From Brooklawnia cerclae (GTDB lineage Bacteria > Actinomycetota > Actinomycetes > Propionibacteriales > Propionibacteriaceae), in contig NZ_JAAMOZ010000001.1 of NCBI RefSeq assembly GCF_011758645.1, forward strand, positions 2,170,001 through 2,234,000: DNA of 64,000 nucleotides, read 5' to 3'. Under the pieces are notes generated by a model that saw nothing but the letters and a program-made list of their open reading frames with translations, was not told the DNA's origin and did no database searches. Made by a program: the position numbers and the translations under genes. Positions 39,984 to 43,534 of the stretch are shown one piece after another (within the stretch, counting starts at the first letter, position 1; each line of letters starts with the position of its first letter).

Positions 39984-40910
39984 TCAGGCGACACCCAGGG
40001 CGGAACGCGTGTCCGCCACGTCGACTTCCATCTGGGCTATGAGCTCGTCCACCGACGAGAACCTCACCTGCCCACGCAGGTGCGCCACGAACTCGACACC
40101 GATCTCGACTCCGTAGAGCTCGAGGTCGGTGCGATCGAGGACGTAGGACTCGACCCTGCGTTCCAGGCCGTCGAAGGTCGGGTTGGTGCCCACGCTGATC
40201 GCGGACGGCAGGAGAAGGGCGTCACGCTCGTCCAGCCGTCGGAGCCAACCCGCGTAGACACCGTCGGCGGGGATCGCCATGTCGTCGGGGATCACCAGGT
40301 TGGCGGTCGGAAAGCCCAGGTCACGGCCACGCTGGTCGCCCATGACCACCACGCCGCGCACCCGGAAGCTCCGGCCCAGGTGCCGGGCAGCCTGTTCGAC
40401 GTCGCCGCGGGCGATGGCCTGACGTACCAGCGTCGAGCACGTGCGGACGTCGTCGACCTCCCACAGATGCATGACGTCCACCTCGAAGCGTCCACGGGCG
40501 AGTTCGCGCATCGTCTCGCCCGTGCCCGCCGCCCCCTTGCCGAACGTGAAATTCTCACCGACCTCGACGGCGACAGGATTCAGCGGCGTGAGGATCGTCT
40601 CGACGAACCGCTCGGGCGACCAGCCCGCGATCTCGCGGGTGAACTGGACGACCCTCACCTGGTCGGCTCCGTAACGCCGCAGCAGGTCGATGCGATCGGA
40701 CAGGTCGGTGAGAAGCCTCGGCGCCTTGTCGGGCGCCACGACGCGCAGAGGATGAGGCCAGAAGGTCACGACGACGACGGGGAGCGGGCCCTGGTCGTCC
40801 GCCCACTGCACGGCCTGTTCACGAGCCCGGGCGAGGAGCTTCTGGTGTCCAGTGTGGACGCCATCGAAGTTCCCGATGACCACCACGCTGTGCCGTCTCT
40901 CCGGTCGCAT
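39984..40910 (-). CDS. ribF: Bifunctional riboflavin kinase/FAD synthetase
   Basis: Makes FMN and FAD from riboflavin. N-terminal adenylyltransferase with VIGNFDGVHTGHQKLL and the later GENFTFGKGAAG, C-terminal kinase with GRDLGFPTANLVIP and VGTNPTFDGLERRVESYVLD. 308 residues from ATG 40910 (MRPERRHSVVVIG). No FMN riboswitch is seen upstream. Confidence 0.95.
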   Translation of the reverse strand: MRPERRHSVVVIGNFDGVHTGHQKLLARAREQAVQWADDQGPLPVVVVTFWPHPLRVVAPDKAPRLLTDLSDRIDLLRRYGADQVRVVQFTREIAGWSPERFVETILTPLNPVAVEVGENFTFGKGAAGTGETMRELARGRFEVDVMHLWEVDDVRTCSTLVRQAIARGDVEQAARHLGRSFRVRGVVVMGDQRGRDLGFPTANLVIPDDMAIPADGVYAGWLRRLDERDALLLPSAISVGTNPTFDGLERRVESYVLDRTDLELYGVEIGVEFVAHLRGQVRFSSVDELIAQMEVDVADTRSALGVA

Positions 40911-40984: not shown

Positions 40985-42520
40985 CTACCCCCATGAGGTG
41001 TCGCCGCGCCGGGCAGCCCCCTGCCTGTGGCCGTGACGGGTGAGGAACGTGTCCACGTCCCCGAGGTCGTCGATGCGTTCCTCCAGCTCCTCACGACTCC
41101 AGTCCCACCAACGGGTGGCCCGGATTGCCTCGGCGACGTCGCGGGGGAACCGTTCACGCAGAACGTGCGCCGGGACGCCCGCCACGACGGTGTAGGGCTC
41201 GACGTCGTGGGTCACCACCGCGGAAGCCCCCACGACCGCGCCGTCGCCGATCGACACCCCCGGCATGATCGTCGCGCCGTGGCCCACCCACACGTCGTTG
41301 CCGATCGTGACGGGATGCGAGCGCCGCCATTCGAAGAACCGCTCGTCGTCGTCTCCGAGACCGAAGGCGGATCGGCGATAGGTCATGTGATGCTGGGTGA
41401 CCCGCCACATCGGGTGGTTTCCCGGGTTGATCCGCACATGGGACGCGATGGAGCAGTACTTGCCGACCGTTGCGTACACACAGTCCACATCGCCCGCCAG
41501 ATAGCTGTAGTCACCGATCGTCGACTCGCTGACAAGGCATCTCGGGCCGATGTCGGTCCACTCCCCCAGGGTCGAATCGACCACGCGGGAGGTCTGGTGC
41601 ACCGCGGGCAGGCGCGAGAGCCGCTCACCGCTGAGCCCGCTTGGGAGCTCTCGATTCGGGACCATCCGATTCGGGGCCGTCCGGATCTGCCCGGCTGCGC
41701 TTCGGACCCCGGTCTGTGCCGGGGCGACCCGAAGCGCCTGGCCGAAACCCGGCTGTCGCCGCTCCCGGAAGGCCGCCAGACCCTCGGCGAAGTCAGGACT
41801 CCGCGACAGGAGCGTCTGGACGGCGGGTTCGTCCTCCAGATATCGCTCGAAGCCTGTGAACGTGGACGCCCAGACCTGCTGCTTGATGGCTGCCAGCGCG
41901 TCCGCCGGACCGGCCGCGAGTTCGGCCGCGAGTTCGGCCGTCTGACGCACGAGATCCGTCGCGGGCACGACTCGCGTGACCAACCCCAGCGTCACGGCCT
42001 CGGAGGCCGGCACAGGACGGCTCCTCATGAGCAGGTCGGAGGCCCGCAGATGGCCCAGCGTCCTGGTGAGGACGAAACCCACTCCCGTGTCGGAGGCGAG
42101 CCCCAGACGTACGAAAGCGGTGGACAAAGTGACGTCGTCGCTCGCCAGGACGAAGTCGGCGGCGAGCACGAGACCCAGCCCCGCTCCCGCCGCCACACGC
42201 TGCACCGACGCGACCACGGGCTTCGGGATCGCCCGCATCAGCCAGACGACGCGTCCCAGGGCCCGGACGAGCGCTCGTACGTTGCCACGATCGTGCGCGA
42301 GATCGGCCTCGAACTGGGCCATGTCGCCACCGGCACAGAACGCCCGCCCCGCCCCCGCGAGGACGATGACACGCACCTCGTCGTCTGCGGCCGCTGCTCC
42401 CAGAGCGTCCAGGAGGTCGTCGGCCACCACGGTGTCGAGCGCGTTGAGGCGCTCGGGACGGTTGAGAACGATGTGTGCCACGTGGTCGCGCACCGAATAG
42501 TCGATCCAGGTGAGCTCCAT
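40985..42520 (-). CDS. Fusion: crotonase (enoyl-CoA hydratase/isomerase) plus phosphonate-type hexapeptide acyltransferase
   Basis: One uninterrupted frame of 511 residues with two unrelated enzymes. Residues 1-255 are a crotonase: [13 protein letters not shown], the oxyanion-hole motifs [13 protein letters not shown] and [16 protein letters not shown], then [16 protein letters not shown], where the PaaG/isomerase-like members keep an aspartate. Residues 255-310 are a linker with a doubled 15-base repeat ([10 protein letters not shown]). Residues 310-500 are a left-handed beta-helix transferase: [53 protein letters not shown] and [21 protein letters not shown], close to the hexapeptide transferase family tied to phosphonate metabolism. 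No stop separates them; an internal ATG at 41665 could yield the transferase alone. TATCGT seven bases before the ATG suggests a leaderless message. Confidence 0.85.
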
Positions 42521-42527
42521 GGTTGAC

Positions 42528-42670: not shown

Positions 42671-43534
42671 TCAGGCGAGGACGGCGATGGGGCGCCCGCC
42701 GACCCCGTAGAGGGCGAGGAGATCACCCTCCGGGCCGACGACGCCGGTCGGCGACGAGGGGATGTCGATGGCCAGGGAACGTCCGAACCCGATGTCCCGG
42801 GCCTCGTCCGGCCCGACCTCGACGACGGGGAAGCTCAGGCGCGCCGCGGCGGCCATGGTCATGAGCGGCGTGGTGGGCTCCAGCGCATCCAGTTCGATCG
42901 CGGAGTTCAGCCCGTAGCCTCCGATGCGGGTACGCCGCAGCCGTGTGAGATGGCCCCCCACTCCCAGCGTCGCCCCGAGGTCGCGGGCGAGCGCGCGCAC
43001 ATAGGTGCCGGACGAGCACTCGACCTCGACGTCCACATCGCAGAAGTCACCCGAAGACGCGACGGCGGTCGCCTCGAAGCGGGTCACGCGCACGGGCCTG
43101 GCCGCCAGCTGCACCTCCTCGCCGGCACGCGCCCGGGCATAGGCGCGCCTGCCGTCGACCTTGATCGCCGAGACCGTGCTCGGCACCTGCATGATCTCAC
43201 CACGCAGGGGTGCCATCGCACGCTCGATCTCGTCGGCGCCGAGGGTGCCGGCCGGGGCCCCTCCGGTCGGCTCGCCCTCGGCATCGTCCGTGGAGGTCGA
43301 CCGGCCCAACCGGATGGTGGCGCGATATTCCTTGTCGTGCAGCGCCAGGTGGCCCAGCAGACGGGTTGCGCGATTCACCCCGACGATGAGGACCCCGGTC
43401 GCCATCGGGTCCAGAGTGCCCGCATGGCCGACCTTGCGCGTCCCCAGTACTCGTCGGACGCGTCCGACGACCTGATGGGAGGTCAGGCCCGCCGGCTTGT
43501 CGATGACGAGGATCCCCGCGGAGTCCACGGGCAC
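42671..43534 (-). CDS. truB: tRNA pseudouridine(55) synthase
   Basis: Converts U55 to pseudouridine in the T-loop of tRNAs. The catalytic aspartate is in GHAGTLDPMATGVL; LVIDKPAGLTSHQVV precedes it and KEYRATIRLG follows; a C-terminal domain with the PUA-like LLALYGVGGRPIAVLA ends the 287-residue protein. GTG start at 43534 touches the rbfA stop (TGA-GTG). Confidence 0.95.
   Translation of the reverse strand: MPVDSAGILVIDKPAGLTSHQVVGRVRRVLGTRKVGHAGTLDPMATGVLIVGVNRATRLLGHLALHDKEYRATIRLGRSTSTDDAEGEPTGGAPAGTLGADEIERAMAPLRGEIMQVPSTVSAIKVDGRRAYARARAGEEVQLAARPVRVTRFEATAVASSGDFCDVDVEVECSSGTYVRALARDLGATLGVGGHLTRLRRTRIGGYGLNSAIELDALEPTTPLMTMAAAARLSFPVVEVGPDEARDIGFGRSLAIDIPSSPTGVVGPEGDLLALYGVGGRPIAVLA

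Follow-up and report, generated by a model that had tools for sequence, protein, structure and literature searches.

A probable fusion of a crotonase gene with a hexapeptide acetyltransferase gene in Brooklawnia cerclae

Described relatives and the fused frame

Two Glu residues are catalytic in enoyl-CoA hydratase, enzymes of the hexapeptide type form trimers, and PhnO of E. coli has a fold different from theirs. Judging by family, we take crotonases and hexapeptide transferases alike to act on CoA thioesters, and we assume residue 82 of the streptogramin acetyltransferase 1khr to be its catalytic residue. For the isomerase PaaG of Thermus, passages of one report describe Asp136 as catalytic, the structure 6SLA as the D136N variant and the enzyme as a trimer (PMC7497051), and part of another also gives PaaG as trimeric (PMC4498308). 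PhnO, as outlined in a portion of a further report, N-acetylates aminoalkylphosphonates and thereby prepares some of them for use (PMC3463581). In the open-access literature we found no described enzyme that joins a crotonase to a hexapeptide transferase, in agreement with an earlier note on this DNA whose author knew of none, and no mention of TIGR03308, the family that best fits the transferase discussed below.

The window analysed here is a stretch of 64,000 nucleotides from B. cerclae (contig NZ_JAAMOZ010000001.1, positions 2,170,001 to 2,234,000), and on its minus strand lies a gene whose translation gives 511 residues with both domains in one frame (Table 1). The Pfam model ECH_1 matches residues 12-261 (E 3.3e-49; 167.9 bits against a cut-off of 27, covering profile positions 4-250 of 251) and Hexapep matches residues 404-438 (E 6.4e-14), and the NCBIfam model TIGR03308, which represents the hexapeptide transferases of phosphonate gene clusters, matches residues 302-495 with 272.7 bits against a cut-off of 201.65. 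The open translation and these matches bear out what the earlier note had read from the letters, namely a single frame holding two complete domains with their key residues, the second of them from a phosphonate-cluster family; its coordinates, its frame length and its siting of the gene between ribF and truB also hold, and the strand, on which it was silent, is minus. The sequence occurs at full length once in the window genome (G000; C1:2210985-2212520, identical), and the only candidates for extra copies were two other DNA matches of 24 bases each, which we rejected. The longest frame starts at a GTG 35 codons upstream of the chosen ATG, and the ATG was taken as the start because the frame of the nearest relative, in another genome of the genus (G001), begins at the same ATG without gaps.

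On the same strand, infB and truB lie upstream of the fused gene, and ribF and a polynucleotide phosphorylase gene downstream. Two further genes nearby, rbfA and rpsO, were identified from their translations, the model scan at a threshold of 1e-40 having returned neither. The longest ribF frame, with its start at 40994, would share 10 bases with the fused gene. A scan limited to consensus sequences found no promoter or terminator before the fused gene or between its domains. Antisense to the gene runs a 499-codon open frame (window 41027-42526, plus strand), which we take for a by-product of DNA with 68% GC.

Table 1 Features of the fused gene and its neighbours, in window coordinates.
Feature	Position	Strand	Basis or remark
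Fused gene	42520-40985	minus	ATG start, TGA stop, 511 codons, no internal stop
Crotonase-superfamily domain, residues 1-260	41741..42520	minus	PaaG / delta3-delta2 enoyl-CoA isomerase-like; ECH_1 match
Codon 116, Gly where hydratase has its first Glu	42173..42175	minus	Alignment
Codon 136, Phe where hydratase has its second Glu	42113..42115	minus	Alignment
Codon 144, Asp, aligned with catalytic Asp136 of Thermus PaaG	42089..42091	minus	Alignment
Codon 261, CAG (Gln), putative stop-loss site	41738..41740	minus	TAG in G001 and G066
Linker, residues 261-298	41627..41740	minus	Putative former spacer plus transferase N-terminal tail
ATG, codon 286	41663..41665	minus	Likely original transferase start; possible internal start
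Hexapeptide (left-handed beta-helix) acetyltransferase	40985..41665	minus	TIGR03308; residues 286-511 alone 275.5 bits, cut-off 201.65
Codon 369, His of the NHP motif	41414..41416	minus	Invariant in 9 aligned rows; aligned with His residue 82 of 1khr
truB, upstream neighbour	42671..43534	minus	150 bases before the fused gene; TIGR00431 217.1 bits, cut-off 151.45
ribF, downstream neighbour	39984..40910	minus	Likely start ATG 40910, AGGAG just upstream

Assignment of the two halves

The best solved relatives of the crotonase half are 2ej5 and the PaaG entries 6slb, 6sl9 and 6sla. Neither catalytic Glu of enoyl-CoA hydratase is present in it (G116 and F136), the relatives L035 and L042 having Glu in both of these columns, and the column of D144 holds Asp in 6slb, 6sl9 and 3hrx and Asn in 6sla. 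Because both hydratase Glu residues are replaced and the PaaG-type Asp is kept, the crotonase half is probably an isomerase and, by its residues, not an enoyl-CoA hydratase; the enoyl-CoA hydratase/isomerase domain proposed at first sight therefore keeps its place among the crotonases and loses the hydratase part of its name. PaaG of Thermus thermophilus (1,2-epoxyphenylacetyl-CoA isomerase, 6SL9/6SLB) aligns over the full length, but the crotonase half scores 178 bits, far under the cut-off of 345.15 of the PaaG equivalog TIGR02280, and for this reason we do not call it PaaG itself. The top crotonase model among the 25 shown, that of the trans-2-decenoyl-ACP isomerase FabM (NF050134), was not reached either (192.1 bits against 400).

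For the transferase half, the best solved relatives are the Vat and CatB xenobiotic acetyltransferases (1khr, 6mfk), and H369, at the place of the catalytic His in their coil region, aligns with residue 82 of the 1khr chain. These enzymes differ, however, in that they reach only 88-91 bits, the fit to TIGR03308 being far better, and a resistance function is not indicated. A wide scan, which took one genome from each of 84,980 species and may omit very near relatives, yielded 33 pattern matches and 10 relatives with 36-64% identity (Gracilibacillus 64, Paenibacillus 59, Mucilaginibacter 57, Sphaerobacteraceae 55, Chloroflexia 54, the rest 54 or lower); with the transferase half alone as query, the Chloroflexia relative (L097) shows 61% identity. 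The transferase is a stand-alone protein of 209-224 residues in all eight loci inspected among these 10 relatives (L096-L103, with L104 and L105 left out). The relative from Gracilibacillus ureilyticus (L096:4980-5654) shares 64% identity over 204 residues, scores over the TIGR03308 cut-off and has the invariant His of the NHP motif. Unlike the window copy, which is fused and lies ~640 kb from the C-P lyase operon of its genome, all eight stand alone and six are near phosphonate genes. No relatives were found in viral contigs.

TIGR03308 exceeds its cut-off in 2 of 198 genomes of the taxonomic family (G000 and G127), in none of the other seven genomes of the genus, and in three of the 396 genomes of a phylum sample, G000 included, the other two having open frames of 254 and 248 residues. 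In a tree of 22 rows, sequences of the same phylum from G127, G612, G716 and G056 form a clade (support 99/96) that excludes the window copy; the first three score over the TIGR03308 cut-off, and G056 was not scored against it. On the simplest reading of this topology, the transferase gene would have been acquired separately from those of its phylum-mates.

The truB-ribF interval and the stop at codon 261

The nearest crotonase relative (G001, L087:281-1063) has 57% identity over residues 1-259, ungapped, and occupies the same place between truB and ribF. In that genome the end of truB (read from its translation, the contig beginning inside the gene) is followed first by the crotonase, then by a transporter-like gene in convergent orientation and finally by ribF. 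The relative differs from the window gene in ending with TAG at codon 261 and in being followed by this convergent gene of YhgN type (206.6 bits for its best model, cut-off 215) with no transferase between truB and ribF; the draft genome has no match over the TIGR03308 cut-off. Transporter-like genes before ribF, which we take to be of MarC type, fill the slot in six of the seven other genus genomes, standing there without a crotonase in G002, G003, G005, G006 and G007 (as read from translations); the seventh, G004, gave no ribF match. The window genome has its sole match to the transporter-like gene at C1:2545854-2546444 (L118, 60% identity), and the transferase occupies the slot instead. In G007 and G006, two closely similar genus genomes, truB and the transporter-like gene are separated by an extra gene of ~203 codons whose translation resembles a small membrane protein (L114 and L115, 2981-3592).

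The second crotonase relative (G066), from another genus of the same family, has 48% identity, is ungapped to residue 259 and has different neighbours. Both this crotonase and that of G001 consist of 260 residues and end with TAG at the codon that is CAG in the window. A survey of stop positions covered 40 crotonase loci, paralogues included, of which 39 aligned and the 37 that reached residue 245 were scored, two aligned relatives being left out because their alignments ended early. All 37 stop at equivalent codons 261-276 and 31 of them at 261-264 (4 at 261, 25 at 263, 2 at 264, 6 later). The ancestral TAG at codon 261 is fixed by two relatives only, and the commonest stop among the 37 is TGA. 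The chance that 24 random spacer codons stay open at 68% GC is ~0.60, or ~0.20 with the right frame as a further requirement; since a random spacer is often open, the open join is not improbable after loss of the crotonase stop, and the missing stop is the thing to explain.

Behind the CAG codon, 24 spacer-like codons lead to ATG286. Their second-position GC (17/24 versus 0.50, one-sided P 0.03, a weak statistic over 24 codons) is high and not low as in coding sequence, so the spacer carries no coding second-position signal. ATG286 precedes the invariant P305 by 19 residues, a distance that is 12-25 residues in the eight stand-alone relatives. In the structure model (mean pLDDT 54.8), residues 254-299 have pLDDT <50 and no secondary structure, a low confidence that is partly due to the few aligned rows there, and the transferase blocks 301-360 and 401-480 reach 90 or more with a dip at 361-400. 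The model was given aligned rows from transferase relatives only, and its crotonase half, which had no rows and block pLDDT values of 22-54, is uninformative. A reading of the linker as a PhnM remnant was rejected, the match before the transferase in L097 being weak and running across a stop.

We favour a lineage-specific gene fusion through stop-codon loss, to which we give a probability of about 0.68. A PaaG-type crotonase gene would have arrived between truB and ribF, a state common to the nearest genus-mate; a TIGR03308 acetyltransferase gene would have arrived immediately after it, where the relatives have a YhgN/MarC-type transporter gene; and a change of the crotonase stop from TAG to CAG would have let translation run through the ~24 spacer codons into the transferase frame, so that, in the order of events that we infer, one chain of ~55 kDa would now be made. 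Its N-terminal half would move a double bond within an acyl-CoA and its C-terminal half would transfer an acetyl group. After the presumed change of TAG to CAG, the chain would most likely function as two enzymes that act independently and are joined by a flexible tether, a reading favoured by the swap in the slot, the lack of a coding signal in the spacer, the position of ATG286 and the unstructured linker. PaaG and the hexapeptide enzymes are both trimeric, so that a single fused trimer is geometrically conceivable, which may explain why the join is tolerated. The pairing of a crotonase with TIGR03308 is new and comes from a single genome, and it resembles an accident of evolution more than a proven new enzyme. 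If confirmed, the fusion would be a clean example of the birth of a multidomain enzyme, by one transition in a stop codon that turns a non-coding spacer into a linker, with a relative (G001) that still shows the crotonase in its pre-fusion state; a merely tolerated accident would be a small curiosity.

Competing explanations of the fused frame

Searches for a second full-length fused copy found none beyond the window genome among 57 relatives and among the genomes of the genus (8), family (198), order (391) and class (394), samples that overlap, each include the window genome and, for family, order and class, were scored on the best few candidates per genome, so that a distant fusion could be missed. 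This outcome of the domain-architecture check that had been proposed confines the fusion to the window genome among the samples searched. One candidate, the Chloroflexia contig L097, which matched residues 238-506 of the query, was rejected because a stop lies in frame, PhnM is encoded upstream and the transferase has its own ATG. At E 1e-40 or better, three family genomes (G001, G066 and G143) match the crotonase half only and G127 matches the transferase half only, and G066, like G001, has no TIGR03308 match over the cut-off. The shared acyl-CoA substrate or product channelling that the earlier note had envisaged finds no support here: the genomes of the two nearest crotonases have no transferase match over the cut-off, the eight inspected transferase relatives stand alone, and there is no second fusion in the samples. 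Separate genes in close relatives had been named as evidence against a fusion. Each half is indeed free-standing elsewhere, and because of it we consider the fusion lineage-specific and not false.

Selection for a bifunctional enzyme whose halves draw on one acyl-CoA pool or hand over an intermediate would be consistent with the key residues kept in both halves, with their presumed common use of CoA thioesters and with the trimeric state of both fold types. It is nevertheless distinctly unlikely, given that the samples hold no second fused copy, that no other genome of the family was seen to contain close homologues of both halves, and that phosphonate transport or C-P lyase genes are the neighbours of the transferase in six of the eight inspected loci. 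We also judge unlikely that the single stop loss created a real bifunctional enzyme by merging two homotrimers of matched three-fold symmetry into one trimer with three isomerase and three acetyltransferase sites, which would be expressed from the truB-ribF housekeeping region and would bring phosphonate acetylation under new control and into co-localisation. The same frame could be used differently if ribosomes also start at ATG286, yielding the fused chain together with free transferase; the free protein would then be the useful one, and the fusion would add an N-terminal passenger to part of the pool. ATG286 sits where the stand-alone relatives begin, and codons 262-285 contain no alternative ATG, GTG or TTG, but the 24 bases before it show no clear ribosome-binding sequence, whereas ribF has AGGAG before its likely ATG. 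That objection is weakened by the first ATG of the fused gene, which equally lacks such a sequence, and an internal start seems to us rather unlikely.

The join could also be an artefact, codon 261 still being a stop between two adjacent genes. A one-base error of sequencing or assembly would be enough, in the form of a substitution at the very codon where both nearest relatives read TAG. However, assemblies of such quality (6 contigs, with a contig of 2.9 Mb here, completeness 98.49 and contamination 0.27) seldom carry wrong consensus bases. The other two forward frames after residue 255 narrow the possibilities, as one stays open for 80 codons and the other first stops at ~codon 298, at the transferase start. 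Because neither frame stops near the usual crotonase end, a frameshift error would not restore that end, whereas a base substitution would. The stop hidden near residue 260, raised at the outset as a possible error, can thus be rejected as a frameshift and is left as a single substitution, which we hold to be very improbable. Next to no probability attaches to an ancestral fusion that was later split or lost in relatives, for which no support was found: all 37 scorable crotonase relatives stop by codon 276, and the other seven genus genomes have no transferase match over the cut-off.

The transferase half and the C-P lyase genes

With truB and ribF as its neighbours, the fused gene has no phosphonate genes beside it. 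The earlier note was right in this, but its picture of a gene standing alone does not extend to the genome, which contains a near-complete C-P lyase operon that lacks this transferase. The operon spans C1 ~2.853-2.864 Mb (L110:3386-13741) and comprises phnD, C, E, E, G, H, I, J, K, L and M plus a weak phnF match, each by model match or tblastn; PhnJ scores over its Pfam cut-off (C1:2860088-2860864), and tblastn with the Gracilibacillus transferase found no hexapeptide transferase in the stretch. In an NCBIfam scan of the pieces, mostly tblastn matches and not whole genes, PhnC, PhnE and PhnH exceeded their cut-offs, PhnD did so by a subfamily model and not by the PhnD equivalog, and PhnM did so by two of its models and not by TIGR02318. 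The best matches of PhnG, PhnK and PhnL were below cut-off, and phnI and phnJ had no NCBIfam model match in the scanned pieces.

Phosphonate transport or C-P lyase genes lie within ~2 kb of the transferase in six of the eight inspected loci (L096-L101), and none were seen near it in the remaining two (L102 and L103). At L096, PhnC, PhnE, PhnG, PhnH and, by a subfamily model, PhnD score over cut-off, PhnK has a best match below it, and phnI and phnJ match no model; the second phnE was left out of the scan. PhnM of L097 is supported by a family model, and the phosphonate gene calls other than this one and the modelled L096 genes come from tblastn or the reading of translations. PhnJ was found in 12 of the 198 family genomes, including both that carry TIGR03308 (G000 and G127). 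The chance of both falling among the PhnJ genomes is 0.003, one of the two being the query genome itself; the other seven genus genomes gave no PhnJ match. In G127, the transferase (L085:9497-10150) is on another contig than the C-P lyase genes (L111), and since the two are apart there and no phosphonate genes were seen at L102 and L103, siting beside such genes is not strict for TIGR03308.

The transferase is linked to C-P lyase by the name of its family, by gene neighbourhood and by joint occurrence in two family genomes, of which G000 is one, and on this basis the transferase half would most plausibly acetylate an alkylphosphonate or aminoalkylphosphonate for the C-P lyase encoded elsewhere, a role that would be analogous to that of PhnO. 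If the fusion is confirmed, the C-P lyase operon, distant as it is, would be the context in which to interpret the orphan hexapeptide transferase. Two further arrangements were seen among the phylum-mates. G056 carries PhnJ twice, once in each of two C-P lyase operons (L088 and L112), and tblastn with the Gracilibacillus transferase found no transferase in the L112 operon; the transferase of this genome adjoins the L088 one. The transferase of G127 adjoins what reads as a peptide-type ABC transporter.
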